Assembly: GCA_005116945.1 (NCBI GenBank)
Contig: SWDH01000027.1
Span: forward strand, 1 to 52,299
Direction of reading: 5' to 3'
Length of the DNA: 52,299 nucleotides
Origin: Nitrospira sp.
GTDB taxonomy: Bacteria; Nitrospirota; Nitrospiria; Nitrospirales; Nitrospiraceae
A program made the position numbers and the translations under genes. Shown one piece after another: positions 9,103 through 37,883 of the stretch. The stretch's first letter is position 1. Each line of letters begins with the position of its first letter. The notes under the pieces are model-generated. The model was not told the DNA's origin, did no database searches, and saw only the letters and a list, made by a program, of their open reading frames with translations.

Positions 9103-9339
9103 TTAGTGGGCGGGGCGGGGCGCGGATTTCGTCTTGTACTCTGGCAGCCGCAGCATGTAGCGACGTTCGAGGCCGAACGTCACCAGGATCACGCCCTCTC
9201 GGCTTAACCGATCGATTTCAAGAAAAATCTGGCTCCAGGACAGGTCCGGGAGATTCTTCGTCAAGGTATCCAGATCGCACACGGGCATGCGTTGTAATTC
9301 GTCGAGAATGCGATCAGTGATTGGTGTACGTGATGCCAT
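9103..9339 (-). CDS. Small winged-helix-like protein
   Basis: A 78-residue soluble protein. The ATG at 9339 has AGGAGG eight bases upstream; the longer frame from 9444 has no such signal. The pattern TPITDRILDELQRMP, then DLDTLTKNLPDLSWSQIFLEIDRLSREGVILV, reads as helix-turn-helix plus a beta wing, as in small winged-helix regulators. The C-terminus is Lys/Arg/Pro-rich. A DNA-binding role is inference from the predicted fold; no target is evident. It stands alone, and its stop lies beside a family A fragment. Confidence 0.7.
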   Translation of the reverse strand: MASRTPITDRILDELQRMPVCDLDTLTKNLPDLSWSQIFLEIDRLSREGVILVTFGLERRYMLRLPEYKTKSAPRPAH

Positions 9340-32835: not shown

Positions 32836-33129
32836 TCATGACACTGGGCCTATTTCCTTGAAGTCCTGCCTCACGGTTTCTTCGACCTTTGTGAGACAGT
32901 TCGGACAGTAGGTGTGCGAGAGAGCAAGATCGGCTGGATTGATCCCATGGGTCTTTCGGTACGTCCGTTGCGTGATCCAGAGCTCACGACCTGGGGAAAA
33001 TCTTGTATCGTCGCGAATGAGTCCGCAGGCGCAACAGATGGGGAGCAACGTCGGCGGAATGAACGTGTCCCTCCCCGGAGCGAAAGGCGCTTCGCGAATG
33101 AGCTGCATCACGGTTTCCTTAATAGACAT
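32836..33129 (-). CDS. Stand-alone zinc-binding signalling module
   Basis: A 97-residue soluble protein. The ATG at 33129 is preceded by GAGG six bases away; longer versions of the frame are low quality. Two cysteine pairs, in PICCACGLIRDD (Cys32/33/35) and SHTYCPNCL (Cys75/78), match the zinc-binding tail IC.xC..IRD...W...SHGxCPxC that is usually found at the C-terminus of PAS-type sensor proteins and response regulators. Here it is free-standing. Its promoter shares a three-CTAG operator with the receiver-only regulator gene at 37452, so it is probably part of the same signalling circuit. Confidence 0.75.
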   Translation of the reverse strand: MSIKETVMQLIREAPFAPGRDTFIPPTLLPICCACGLIRDDTRFSPGRELWITQRTYRKTHGINPADLALSHTYCPNCLTKVEETVRQDFKEIGPVS

Positions 33130-33339: not shown

Positions 33340-33406
33340 TATATACAAGAGAGGACTCGCCTCCGATACTAGGATTTTTACTAGTTCTGGAAGGAAACCT
33401 TACTAG
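33340..33406 (-). promoter_or_regulatory. Promoter with triple-CTAG operator (zinc-module gene)
   Basis: Reading leftward: CTAG at 33403, 33381 and 33369 (spacings 22 and 12), then -35 TATCGG (33368-33363) directly against the last CTAG, a 17-base spacer, and -10 TATATA (33345-33340). Every spacing is identical to the promoter at 37347-37413. The weak -35 touching the operator suggests activation by a bound regulator. Confidence 0.65.
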
Positions 33407-33622
33407 CGGGAGGCTCAGGGGGCAGCGAGTTCGGCCGGCGAACAGGAGTCGACTTGAGTCAGTTGCCGATGGATTTCCGATTCAGTAAATATGGTTGCGT
33501 CCTGTGTCGCATCACAACAGAAAATAGCGCGGAGGACGCCTCCGCATCGCCCGCACCATCCCCGCCCCCCGCTCAATGGACCGTGAGTCATCACGCATAC
33601 GGCAAGGATTCGCTTAGAGAAA

Positions 33623-33638
33623 CTAGGGAATTCACTAG
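33623..33638. promoter_or_regulatory. CTAG-N8-CTAG site
   Basis: CTAGGGAATTCACTAG has the same 12-base CTAG spacing as the two promoters, but there is no third CTAG 22 bases away. Read leftward it abuts TTTCTC and, 17 bases on, TATGCG. It may be a weaker or auxiliary site for the same regulator. Confidence 0.45.
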
Positions 33639-33799
33639 GTCTGAAGGAAGGCCTTCTTCGGGCCTGCACTACGATGATGATCTCCCTGCTTGTCTGATCG
33701 TGGGGAAAAGCCTAAACTCTGATTACTAATCAGCCCATCAGCCGCGAGCGACGACTGTTTAGCGCCGCGGTCTCTGTCATTCAAGGGAAGACACACACT

Positions 33800-36589
33800 G
33801 TGGGTACGGCACGGAAGACTCCGAGAAAGACTAATCCTGCTAAAGCTGGGGCCAAACGCAAAGGCGCCAAGCCAAGACCTATGAAAAGGCCACTTCCTCG
33901 TTCAGAACGCGATGCCTCTCAGATGCCGCAGAACGAGGAACTGCGCCAGGCTCAGATCGAACTCGAAGCGGCCCGTGATCGCTATGCGGCGCTCTACGAT
34001 TTCTCCCCAGCAGGCCATCTTATGTTGGATAGCCACGGCACGATTGTGGAGGCTAATCTGAGGGCTGGGACGCTCCTCGGTGTCAACCAGAAAGAGCTGA
34101 TCGGCCAATCATTCGGCCACTTCGTTGCACAGGATGATCAGGACACCCTCCATCGGCATTGTCAGGAAGTCTTTAAGACAGGCACCCGGCAAAGTTGCGA
34201 GATGCGGCTCACGGAAAATCCAGACGCCGCCTGTTGTGTCCATCTCGAGAGCATCGCGATGCAGGAGGAATCAGGGCATAGTGCCCATTGGCGGACGGCG
34301 CTTCTCGATATCACCGAACGGAAGCGGGCTGAGCAGGAACAAGCCCGGCTCATCGAGGACCTGACTCGGTCGCAACAACATTTTCAATCTCTCTTCCACT
34401 GGATTCCCTCCGCCGTCGGAATCAGTACCGTGGCGGACGGTCGATTTATTGATGTGAATGAGGGGCTTAGCCGGCTGACCGGGTATAGGCGAGAGGAAGT
34501 GATTGGCCGTACCACTTTAGAATTGGGAATGTGGGCTGATCCATCCCAACGCGCGATTGTGCTCCAAGAAATTCGGGAACAGGGCTTTCTGCACAATCGG
34601 GAAGGACAGCTTCGGACCAAGTCCGGAGAGATTCGTTCTCTCATGATCTCCGTCCACCCGATCCAACTCGGGGCCACTCCCTGCCTGATCTATCTGGCTC
34701 ATGATATTACCGATCGCAAGCGGGCGGAGGAGGCGCTGCGTAAAAGCGAGGACCAGTATCGCGCGCTGTATCAAGACAGCCCCTTCATGTATTTCACCGT
34801 GAGCGCGGATGGAGCCATCCTTTCCGTCAACCGGCTGGGTGCTGAATCGCTCGGTTTTCTGGCCGAGGAACTGATGGGCCGGTCCGTATTGTCGATATTC
34901 CATGAGGAAGATCGGGCCGCGGCGCGCATGTCCCTCGACAGAAGTTTGGCGAATCCAACCGATCTGGCCACCTGGGAGTTCCGCAAAGTGCGTAAGGATG
35001 GGACCACCCTCTGGGTCCGGGAAACGGTCCGGCTCGTAGAGGACGATGGTGGAGCGCTTGTCATGCTACTTGCCTGTGAAGACATCACCGAGCGAAAACG
35101 AGCGGAGGAGGCGTTGCGCGAGAGTGAATCGCGCTTCCGGATCATGGCGGATACGGCGCCGACCCTGATCTGGATGTCGGGCCTCGACAAGTTGTGCACG
35201 TATGTTAATCAGGTCTGGTTGGACTATACCGGCCGGACGATGGAGCAGGAACTGGGGAACGGCTGGACGGACGGCGTGCACCAGGAAGACGTCGACCGTT
35301 GTCGGAAGACGTATGCCGAGGCGTTCGATCGGCGCGAGCCCTTCCAGATGGAATACCGCCTACGCAAAGCGGATGGGCAATATGGCTGGGTGTTTGATAA
35401 AGGCGTACCGCGCTACTTCCCCTCCGGCGAGTTTGCGGGATACATCGGCACCTGCATCGACATGACTGAACGCAAGTGGGCCGAGGCGGCACTGCAGGCC
35501 AGCGACGTCTTTACCCGTGCGGTCCTGAACTCACTTTCCGCGCCTGTCTGCGTGCTGGACAAAGAAGGGGTCATCGTCACGACGAATGATCCCTGGAGAG
35601 AATTTACCAAACGGCACGTGGATCGTGCCTTCATCTTTGGGGAGGTCTCAGACAATTATCTTGATTGCTGTCGTCATACCGCTGCCGGCAGTCTGTTGGA
35701 AGGCCAGGCTATTCTTCAAGGTGTTGAGGATGTACTGATGGGCAGCGAACGGAGTTTTATCTATGAATATGCCTGTCATGTGCCGGAAGAGGAATGCTGG
35801 TTTCTGATGCGCGTGACTCCGTTGAAAGATGCGAAGGGCGTGGTCATTTCTCATACGGATATCTCACGGCGTGTCCGGATGGGGTTGGCGCTGGAGCAAA
35901 AAACAGTGCTGCTCGGCGAAAAACAGAAGGAATTGGAATCCTTGGCCGGGAAGCTGATCGAAACTCAAGAAGCTGAGCGCAAGCGGATTGCACGCGAACT
36001 GCACGACGACTTCAATCAGCGATTGGCGGCTCTGTCGCTGGAACTGGAGAGCATGGAGAGAGCCCCTATCGCTCTACCAGAGCCGATCGCCCGGCAACTC
36101 GCCGCGGTCCGCGTTCAGACTGGAATGCTGTCCGATGACCTGCACGATCTGGCGTACAGGTTGCACCCGTCCTTGCTCGAGCATGTTGGCCTGGAGGTTG
36201 CTGCACGAGATCACGTCTCCGAGTTTGCGAAGCGGACCGGGTTGTCCGTGAGGTTTATCGGCCGAGAGGTACCGAAGATGCTCTCGCCGGAGGTCGCCAC
36301 CAATCTGTTTCGCGTCTTGCAGGAGAGTTTGCAGAATGTATCCAAGCATGCCCAGGCGACAGACGTCACTGTCAGACTGAGCGGCTCGTCCAAAGGGGTC
36401 GGCTTGTCGGTGCGCGATAATGGCAACGGGTTCGACTTTGAGGACAAGAACGCCGGCGTAAGAGGACTTGGCTTGGTGAGCATGCAGGAGCGCACGCGTG
36501 GATTGGGAGGGCTTCTTCGGATCCATTCCTTGCCCAGGAGCGGGACGAAGATCTGTGCGTGGATTCCCAATTTACAGGAGGACGCATGA
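33800..36589 (+). CDS. Cytoplasmic multi-PAS sensor histidine kinase, NarX-type core
   Basis: A 929-residue kinase without membrane segments, starting at GTG 33800. A very basic head (RKTPRKTNPAKAGAKRKGAK) is followed by five PAS domains (roughly 50-175, 190-310, 320-440, 450-570 and 580-695), most ending in DITERKRAEE-like linkers. Then come a HisKA_3 dimerisation domain with ERKRIARELHDDFNQR (phospho-accepting His735) and an HATPase domain with NVSKHAQ, DNGNGFD and GLGLVSM (about 845-920). It senses a soluble, probably redox or metabolite, signal and should phosphorylate the NarL-type regulator whose start codon overlaps its stop (ATGA). The signal cannot be read from the sequence. Confidence 0.92.
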   Translation: MGTARKTPRKTNPAKAGAKRKGAKPRPMKRPLPRSERDASQMPQNEELRQAQIELEAARDRYAALYDFSPAGHLMLDSHGTIVEANLRAGTLLGVNQKELIGQSFGHFVAQDDQDTLHRHCQEVFKTGTRQSCEMRLTENPDAACCVHLESIAMQEESGHSAHWRTALLDITERKRAEQEQARLIEDLTRSQQHFQSLFHWIPSAVGISTVADGRFIDVNEGLSRLTGYRREEVIGRTTLELGMWADPSQRAIVLQEIREQGFLHNREGQLRTKSGEIRSLMISVHPIQLGATPCLIYLAHDITDRKRAEEALRKSEDQYRALYQDSPFMYFTVSADGAILSVNRLGAESLGFLAEELMGRSVLSIFHEEDRAAARMSLDRSLANPTDLATWEFRKVRKDGTTLWVRETVRLVEDDGGALVMLLACEDITERKRAEEALRESESRFRIMADTAPTLIWMSGLDKLCTYVNQVWLDYTGRTMEQELGNGWTDGVHQEDVDRCRKTYAEAFDRREPFQMEYRLRKADGQYGWVFDKGVPRYFPSGEFAGYIGTCIDMTERKWAEAALQASDVFTRAVLNSLSAPVCVLDKEGVIVTTNDPWREFTKRHVDRAFIFGEVSDNYLDCCRHTAAGSLLEGQAILQGVEDVLMGSERSFIYEYACHVPEEECWFLMRVTPLKDAKGVVISHTDISRRVRMGLALEQKTVLLGEKQKELESLAGKLIETQEAERKRIARELHDDFNQRLAALSLELESMERAPIALPEPIARQLAAVRVQTGMLSDDLHDLAYRLHPSLLEHVGLEVAARDHVSEFAKRTGLSVRFIGREVPKMLSPEVATNLFRVLQESLQNVSKHAQATDVTVRLSGSSKGVGLSVRDNGNGFDFEDKNAGVRGLGLVSMQERTRGLGGLLRIHSLPRSGTKICAWIPNLQEDA

Positions 36590-37233
36590 AGAAACCACGT
36601 GTGCTCATGGCTGATGACCATTCGTTGATCCTCGCCGGATTGCGGAAGCTCGTGGAAGTTGAGTGTGAGGTGGTGGGCACGGTGGAAGACGGGCGATCAT
36701 TGGTTGAAGCGGCGCAGAAGTTACAGCCGGATCTGATTCTCCTGGACATTGCGATGCCGTTTTTAAATGGGCTCGAAGCGGCCCGGCAACTCCGGGTACT
36801 GGTGCCGGAAAGCAAACTCATTTTTCTCACCATGCATGCCAGCCCGACCTATGCCACCGAGGCGTTCCAGGCAGGGGCTTCAGGATATCTCCTCAAGCGC
36901 TCCGCGGCCTCAGAGCTCAGCGCGGCGATCCGATCAGTCCTCCACGGCCAACATTATCTGACCCCATTGATTACGAAAGATGTGCTGGACTCGGTTCTCA
37001 ATCCCTCCTCGGGAGAACGAGGTACGACTGTGTCCATGGCGCTTACCCCGCGCCAGCGGGAAGTGCTGCAGCTTGTCGCTGAGGGCCGCGGCACCAAGGC
37101 GATTGCCACGGCGCTCAAGGTGTCGGTGAAAACGGTGGAGTTTCACAAGTCCCGCATCATGCAGCAGTTGGACATTCATACCACTGCCAGTTTGACCAAG
37201 TATGCGATCACTCACGGCATCACCAGCCTCTAG
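36586..37233 (+). CDS. NarL/FixJ-type response regulator
   Basis: A 215-residue regulator. The ATG at 36586 overlaps the kinase stop (ATGA), with AGGAGG directly upstream, so the pair is coupled. The receiver domain (1-125) has the acidic pair ADDH near residue 10, phospho-acceptor Asp54 (LILLDIAMP) and Lys in GYLLKRSAA. The LuxR-type helix-turn-helix (about 148-210) is LTPRQREVLQLVAEGR followed by VSVKTVEFHKSRIMQQL. It should bind DNA when phosphorylated by the PAS kinase. The CTAG sites at 33369-33406, 33623-33638 and 37347-37384 are the nearest candidate targets. Confidence 0.93.
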   Translation: MKKPRVLMADDHSLILAGLRKLVEVECEVVGTVEDGRSLVEAAQKLQPDLILLDIAMPFLNGLEAARQLRVLVPESKLIFLTMHASPTYATEAFQAGASGYLLKRSAASELSAAIRSVLHGQHYLTPLITKDVLDSVLNPSSGERGTTVSMALTPRQREVLQLVAEGRGTKAIATALKVSVKTVEFHKSRIMQQLDIHTTASLTKYAITHGITSL

Positions 37234-37244
37234 CCGGACGTAGC

Positions 37245-37313
37245 GCGTGAAAGGTAAAACGTGAGACGTGAAACGTCGCTCGTTTCCGGACTAGAACGTT
37301 TCACTTTTCACGA
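37245..37313 (+). repeat. Family D palindrome (D2)
   Basis: GCGTGAAAGGTAAAACGTGA and GAACGTTTCACTTTTCACGA are imperfect inverted repeats just after the regulator stop. They could form a hairpin at the end of the kinase-regulator transcript. Confidence 0.72.
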
Positions 37314-37346
37314 GAGACCCCCTACGTCTCGCGCCCCTGCCGGGAT

Positions 37347-37413
37347 CTAGTCGAATGGCCCCTCAATGCTAGGGTTTCACCTAGTTTCTTTCACTCTCAA
37401 AAAATCCTATAAT
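37347..37413 (+). promoter_or_regulatory. Promoter with triple-CTAG operator (receiver-only regulator)
   Basis: CTAG at 37347, 37369 and 37381 (spacings 22 and 12), -35 TTTCTT (37385-37390) immediately after the last CTAG, a 17-base spacer and a consensus -10 TATAAT (37408-37413). Predicted transcription would start near 37420, about 30 bases before the gene. The geometry is the same as the leftward promoter at 33340-33406. Confidence 0.72.
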
Positions 37414-37451
37414 ATCTATATCGTTGCCTGTCCTAGATGAGACGATAACAC

Positions 37452-37883
37452 ATGAAGAAACTGCGGATCCTTCTAGCCGACGACCATCCGGAAATGCTGA
37501 ACGCGATATGTGGTGTGTTGGAAGACAAGTTTGGCGAGGTCGTGGAGACGGTGGGAGATGGGGAGGCCCTTGTGGAAGCGGCACAACGGCTGAAGCCCGA
37601 CATTATTATCGCGGATATTTCGATGCCCAGGCTGAACGGCCTCGAGGCCACTCGAGTCTTACAGGCCAGTGTTCCACAGAGCAAAGTCATCATTCTTTCG
37701 GTTCATCGGGAGCCTGTTTACGTGTCCTTGGCGTTCAATGCAGGAGCTCGCGGGTACCTGCTTAAGAGAACGGGCCTCCATACAGAATTGCCGAAAGCGC
37801 TTCAGTGTGTGACCGCGGGCGATCGCTATATCGGGTTGGGGATACGAGAAGAGTGCGCGCTTTCGGATGGAGCCGAAGTGTAG
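37452..37883 (+). CDS. Receiver-only response regulator
   Basis: A 143-residue stand-alone receiver domain with ADDH near residue 10, phospho-acceptor Asp55 (IIIADISMP), Ser/Thr in ILSVHRE and Lys in GYLLKRTG. After the receiver there is only a short tail and no DNA-binding domain, in contrast to the 215-residue regulator next door, to which it is otherwise similar (GDGEALVEAAQRLKPD). It may act as a phosphate sink or as an adaptor for another kinase. It has its own CTAG-type promoter. The ribosome-binding site is weak. Confidence 0.9.
   Translation: MKKLRILLADDHPEMLNAICGVLEDKFGEVVETVGDGEALVEAAQRLKPDIIIADISMPRLNGLEATRVLQASVPQSKVIILSVHREPVYVSLAFNAGARGYLLKRTGLHTELPKALQCVTAGDRYIGLGIREECALSDGAEV

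Follow-up and report, generated by a model that had tools for sequence, protein, structure and literature searches.

Candidate two-dimer activator sites with base-exact CTAG spacing beside NarL/FixJ-family regulator genes in Nitrospira

The Locus and Its CTAG-Bearing Promoters

Members of the genus Nitrospira are major nitrifiers. The window analyzed in this work, that is, the whole 52,299 nt stretch of contig SWDH01000027.1 from a Nitrospira sp. assembly (GCA_005116945.1; 3.39 Mb, 46 contigs), contains a sensor kinase gene which overlaps the 5' end of a response regulator gene starting at position 36586, with the gene for a zinc-module protein on one side of this pair and the gene for a receiver-only protein on the other (Table 1). 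A first-pass annotation of this DNA had reported that the promoters of the two outer genes both read CTAG-N18-CTAG-N8-CTAG (hereafter the triad), and had proposed that the triad is a protein-bound activator site for which the regulator at 36586 was the natural candidate.

Both exact triads (sites A and B) are present, and the pattern occurs nowhere else in the window; it is contained in none of 100 dinucleotide-preserving shuffles of the window. The promoter spacing reported for them is likewise correct, with 6 + 17 nt separating the last CTAG from TATATA in site A and from TATAAT in site B. CTAG as such is depleted in the window (49 observed vs. 93.5 expected) and 12 of the 49 occurrences fall within positions 33369-37476. 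Judged by its sequence, a third, degenerate site is also present beyond the two noted earlier (site C, 33655-33594); it is oriented leftward between site A and the kinase gene, and its distal box reads CTAA in a near relative (L132).

The protein encoded at 36586 belongs to the NarL/FixJ family, having a receiver domain (Response_reg, 93.5 bits against a cut-off of 30.2) followed by a GerE-type helix-turn-helix (HTH; 60.8 bits against 23.5), and it is 97% identical in Nitrospira sp. CG24A. Its partner, encoded by the overlapping gene, is a HisKA_3-type kinase (43.0 bits, cut-off 24). Among the 25 matches listed, the regulator falls within no named NCBIfam equivalog: the best match is MctR (175.5 bits vs. 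a cut-off of 300), and SsrB, UvrY/GacA, NarL, BvgA-like RcsB, and others are also below their cut-offs. The zinc-module protein is below every Pfam and NCBIfam cut-off.

Table 1. Coordinates and characteristics of genes and predicted promoter elements at the locus
Feature	Position	Strand	Basis and remarks
Zinc-module protein	32836..33129	-	97 aa from ATG at 33129; predicted target of site A
Site A predicted -10, TATATA	33340..33345	-	Sequence; alternative TATAGT begins 2 nt further on
Site A operator, CTAG-N18-CTAG-N8-CTAG	33369..33406	-	Pattern match; conserved in G004 and, in altered form, in G009
Small winged-helix family remnant	33415..33516	-	tblastn E 0.02-0.04; N-terminal part alone recognizable; between sites C and A
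Site C weak -10, TATGCG	33594..33599	-	Sequence
Site C operator, degenerate	33623..33660	-	Proximal CTAG-N8-CTAG (33623-33638) intact; distal box (33657-33660) decayed; model match 33655-33597
Sensor kinase, several PAS domains + HisKA_3 + HATPase_c	33800..36589	+	Domain scan
NarL/FixJ-type response regulator, receiver + GerE, helix SVKTVEFHKSRI	36586..37233	+	Domain scan; proposed binder of sites A, B, and C
Site B operator, CTAG-N18-CTAG-N8-CTAG	37347..37384	+	Pattern match, orthologue alignment
Site B predicted -10, TATAAT	37408..37413	+	Sequence
Receiver-only protein	37452..37883	+	Domain scan; predicted target of site B

Conservation of the Spacing in Related Genomes

The conservation of the spacing in related genomes, a check suggested by the first-pass annotation, is evident in both a same-genus and a phylum survey. 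Exact triads are present in 23 of 32 genomes of the genus, at 48 sites in total, and when the distal gap was freed from 3 to 33, a gap of 18 accounted for 48 of 72 rows and any other gap for at most 3. In the phylum survey, triads are found in 53 of 395 genomes and 6 of 169 genera, all of them within the order to which the source genome belongs. Among 104 distinct sites, the best -10-like hexamer begins 23 nt past the last CTAG in 44 and 24 nt past it in 13; in a set of 60 non-redundant sites, the numbers with TANNNT starting at 23, 24, and 25 nt are 21, 9, and 5, respectively, and no other position accounts for more than 4. The informative columns across these 60 sites are the CTAGs themselves, [T/G][A/G]A after the distal box, GG after the middle box, C before and T after the last box, and TA at the -10. 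The weak -35 element that had been described next to the last CTAG stands to the extent that a T directly follows this box in 48 of the 60 sites; apart from this T, no -35 consensus is found over them.

Wrongly spaced triads from the same genus were used as a control. TA occupies the -10 place in 44 of 47 correctly spaced triads but only 6 of 20 wrongly spaced ones (P 1.9e-7), and the regulator helix is encoded within 700 bp of 16 of the 47 and none of the 20 (P 0.0016). The correctly spaced set consists of 47 distinct members of the 48 sites (duplicates over 70 bp removed), and the wrongly spaced set of 20 rows from 17 of 18 loci (the G000:C25 locus gave no separate row), 4 of 24 rows which overlap true triads having been left out; some of the six TA-bearing control rows (L288, L293, L301) resemble real sites with another spacing.

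An alignment of site B from the window and 11 relatives gives identities of 0.98, 0.85, and 1.0 for the three boxes, 0.70-0.76 for the gaps and promoter spacer, and 0.52 for the upstream flank, where the box values are partly a matter of choice because the rows were preselected for having the site (at most 1 mismatch, with TA at the -10). The spacer and -10 columns of these orthologues are more similar than the upstream flank, and the middle box reads CCAG in several relatives.

These results bear on the explanation that the triads arose by chance or are copies of a repeat element. Box-bearing repeats do exist in the source genome: an extended perfect palindrome around CTAGGGAGCCCCCTAG, with CTAG-N8-CTAG, occurs twice in duplicated sequence, 2.2 kb apart (C20:126750-126765 and C20:128969-128984), and the two copies have weak scores with the promoter model described below and no -10 at the usual distance. 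However, chance is ruled out by the shuffles and by the predominance of the 18 nt gap, and a repeat element is ruled out because the sequences between the boxes differ while the spacing holds, a feature first described for sites A and B. The greater likeness of the spacer and -10 columns of orthologues than of their upstream flank also opposes this explanation, which we regard as exceedingly improbable.

Beside a 65% identical regulator in a bin labeled Woeseiaceae (Gammaproteobacteria), there is also an exact triad whose -10 place reads TACCTT (L191:6501-6568); it is the sole triad of that assembly, and its presence there would be due either to transfer or to mis-binning. The two relatives labeled Acidobacteria/Vicinamibacterales have no exact triad.

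Association of the Triads with One Type of Regulator

The source genome contains three exact triads, namely sites A and B and a triad at C32:59875-59912, which directly follows a kinase–NarL-regulator pair, has TATAGA at the usual -10 place, and is located upstream of a porin-like gene. The recognition helix KTVEFHK is present in 2 of the 15 GerE-domain genes of this genome, and these two are the regulators beside the triads; the other 13 have neither this helix nor a triad in the surrounding stretch. A similar relationship is seen across the 104 distinct triads, of which 44 are located 0-379 bp (frame end to site center) past the open reading frame of a NarL-type regulator encoded on the same strand. 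The sequence KT[VI]EFH[KR] is present in all 44 of these regulators and a HisKA_3 kinase precedes most of them. Triads that are divergent from the kinase, as is site A, are found at L050, L053, L055, and L092.

At the genome level, a profile for this type of HTH (threshold E 1e-22 or better, the counts being of profile matches, with helix letters not read genome by genome) matches 172 of the 395 phylum genomes. These include all 53 genomes with triads, whereas none of the 223 non-matching genomes has one. The association is also observed within the family (110 genomes, 97 profile-positive and 49 with triads; P 2.5e-4) and within the genus sample (12/12 vs. 0/3; P 0.0022).

Two sequence models were also applied. 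Model R1 (full promoter, 31 sites, with the three own-genome triads included and site C excluded) ranks site C third in the source genome (E 9.5e-6), and its top four matches all flank the two regulators; only the match to site C is independent, because the own-genome triads formed part of the model. For this reason, model R2 was built from other genera and from the operator alone, using those 13 of 23 operators for which a regulator locus is linked. At an E threshold of 0.01, it identifies the C32 site, a near-site at C12:50388, and site A in the source genome, and 35 sites in 18 of 32 genomes across the genus. The near-triad (C12:50388-50428), a possible unlinked target, has CCAG as its last box and CATGAT in the -10 position; counted from the start of the site, a 485-codon frame follows after 85 nt. 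A single CTAG-N8-CTAG with TATGAT 23 nt on and no distal box (L005; G000:C19:144168-144183) is possibly a one-dimer promoter.

The ownership of the sites by the regulator at 36586 is supported by these comparisons, in that the sites adjoin one recognition-helix type and wrongly spaced triads do not. A different DNA-binding protein could instead own the operator, with the KTVEFH regulator pairs being mere targets or neighbors, as would suit those solitary sites that precede small-protein genes where the stretch examined contains no regulator. However, the lack of triads in genomes without a helix match, the uniform helix of the 44 directly upstream regulators, the 13 own-genome GerE genes devoid of both helix and triad, and the resemblance of the half-site to the RcsB and BvgA half-sites given in the available portions of the literature (see below) all argue against this alternative, and we consider it improbable.

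Several observations nevertheless weigh against assigning the operator to the KTVEFH-type regulators. No such regulator is present directly upstream on the same strand for 60 of the 104 triads within the stretch examined, where more distant links were missed because many loci reach only 1.5 kb on each side. The genome-level association is inflated by shared ancestry, and 119 of the 172 helix-positive genomes, including all 67 outside the order, are without an exact triad. An exact triad is present at 40 of the 80 named regulator loci; with near sites included, the number by the criteria used here is 56, leaving 24 with neither. Site B is missed by model R2 at its E threshold of 0.01, and in distant genera some triads lack a -10 and may be due to chance. 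The broader proposal that all KTVEFH-type regulators of the phylum use this operator is unsupported, as no exact triad occurs outside the order among the 395 genomes.

Genes Downstream of the Triads

Downstream frames were chosen by a simple coding score, which makes single cases uncertain, and none was found for 10 of the 104 sites. Three similarity clusters recur: a small protein of ~80 residues (20 sites), a cluster of mostly receiver proteins (11 members), and a porin-like cluster (11 members), one scanned member of which matches ExtI at 52.7 bits, below the cut-off of 150. No Pfam or NCBIfam family scores above its cut-off for the small protein. In the predicted structure (mean pLDDT 78), helices and strands follow one another as in a winged helix, and the closest experimental structures are Z-alpha/Z-beta, Fur, MarR, and centromere-binding domains (E 3e-3 or worse). 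In the window, an intact 78 aa relative of this small winged-helix family is encoded at 9106-9339 on the minus strand (tblastn E 2.5e-10); this gene is not under a CTAG operator, as no CTAG lies between it and 9842. Another genome encodes a relative of the zinc-module protein (57% identical) downstream of a near-triad. In a distant genus, a CBS–receiver protein encoded behind a triad has a pair of CxxC motifs similar to those of the zinc-module protein.

Other genes are found behind individual triads. A Crp/Fnr-type regulator gene is preceded by a near-identical triad, with TAGGTT in the -10 position, in three genomes of the genus (L024, L029, and L046, from G009, G017, and G004). At L100 (G256:C46:2737-2774), an exact triad is located ~211 nt (from the predicted -10 end) upstream of the gene for ammonia monooxygenase subunit C (AmoC, 351 bits); it lacks a -10 at the usual position and, within the stretch examined, the regulator, and may be due to chance.

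Proposed Mechanism

The geometry, the conservation, the position of the -10, and the co-location with one type of regulator are all evident in the sequences themselves. The interpretation that we favor, with a probability of roughly 0.8, is that sites A, B, and C are two-dimer activator sites of the NarL/FixJ-family regulator encoded at 36586, which would recruit polymerase for local signaling genes. The activator reading of the first-pass annotation is favored by the comparative tests, while its triad of boxes would be better described as two tandem dimer sites. The operator unit would consist of two 16 bp inverted repeats (half-site ~CTAG[G/T][G/A]A, arranged 7-2-7). CTAG is retained in three of the four half-sites; the remaining one, on the right of the distal repeat, appears relaxed, with weak T-rich columns left. 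The repeat centers would lie 22 bp, or two helical turns, apart, at about -43.5 and -65.5 if the start is 7 nt after the -10.

We infer binding by the regulator, its phosphorylation, activation rather than repression, and the start sites. In the proposed sequence of events, the kinase would phosphorylate the regulator, two phosphorylated dimers would then occupy adjacent positions on one DNA face, the proximal dimer replacing the -35 element, and they would recruit sigma-70 RNA polymerase to the TA-type -10 beginning 23 nt past the last CTAG. The outputs would be local signaling genes, encoding the receiver-only and zinc-module proteins here and a small winged-helix or porin-like protein in relatives. 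It is also conceivable that the same regulator represses, its dimers over about -51 to -36 blocking polymerase until the signal changes, since the sign of regulation is not evident from geometry alone and the proximal site is immediately adjacent to the promoter. The lack of a -35 consensus over the 60 sites, however, is as expected of activator-dependent promoters, and BvgA, CrbR, and NarL sites at the equivalent position activate according to the accessible parts of the papers cited below; repression is hence an unlikely explanation.

A more tentative extension of the two-dimer activator model, which we consider doubtful as a whole, is that the KT[VI]EFH[KR] subfamily uses one rigid two-dimer CTAG operator across the Nitrospirales (and one Woeseiaceae-labeled bin) in many local sensor circuits, and that the base following the distal CTAG (T or G) is dictated by the residue before KT (V, or P/T), which would insulate paralogous pairs within one cell. 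V is paired with T in 45 of 48 regulator–site pairs, and G accompanies P or T in 14 of 15. This covariation is not significant, because the residue changes just twice on the regulator tree (63 rows), which yields 1-2 independent pairs.

The base-exact spacing makes these sites findable by a simple pattern and therefore provides a handle on the regulon and on the question of which genes each sensor pair controls. The paralogous regulators also provide a natural series for understanding how NarL-type helices select their sites.

Comparison with Known Systems

In keeping with the earlier statement that no CTAG-triad operator was known to have been described for the NarL/FixJ family, no CTAG operator of this family was found in the open-license literature, including PMC5767232, as far as the available portions of these sources extend, and neither was any regulator–operator pair in Nitrospira. 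The comparisons below likewise refer to those portions of the cited papers that were accessible. BvgA of Bordetella, a member of the NarL/FixJ family, binds as head-to-head dimers that line one DNA face at a center-to-center distance of 22 bp, the final dimer adjoining the -35 region (PMC7250471). The Nitrospira operator likewise has inverted half-sites with 22 bp between the proposed dimer centers, based on the 60 non-redundant sites and the gap histogram, and its proximal site appears to abut the -35 position, with the -10 23 or 24 nt after the last CTAG. The strong BvgA site TAAGAAATTTCCTA, an inverted heptad (PMC7250471), is also close to the CTAGG-A/T-CCTAG repeat of the Nitrospira operator. 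However, BvgA occupies its promoters as three to six dimers, in many cases at sites without recognizable sequence (PMC7250471), whereas the Nitrospira operator comprises two sites with rigid CTAG boxes and its regulator is of another subfamily (KTVEFH helix).

Other regulators share part of this layout. The ACTU motif of CrbR, a LuxR/NarL-type regulator of Pseudomonas, is an imperfect inverted repeat that spans -52 to -36, immediately upstream of the -35 (PMC5715377), and thus resembles the Nitrospira operator in regulator type and position; its sequence differs (e.g., TACTACCATCGTCGAAT), a single repeat is described, and in a comparison by eye, unscored, the published examples lack paired CTAG boxes at N8 and N18, so that this motif was rejected as a match (PMC5715377). 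At the ogt promoter of E. coli, tandem NarL dimers activate from two 7-2-7 sites, the proximal one centered at -44.5 (PMC7419079). The Nitrospira operator agrees with this in its two 7-2-7 sites and a predicted proximal center at about -43.5, but the distal NarL center is at -77.5, 33 bp away, and the heptamer is different (PMC7419079). The RcsB box half-sites TTAGGAA and TCTAAGA resemble the Nitrospira half-sites CTAGGGA and CTAGTAA, although RcsB is an enterobacterial regulator for which a 22 bp-spaced paired layout is not reported in the portions available (PMC5829831). The protein family and the promoter layout are known from these systems, and it is the half-site and its unusually rigid conservation that are new.

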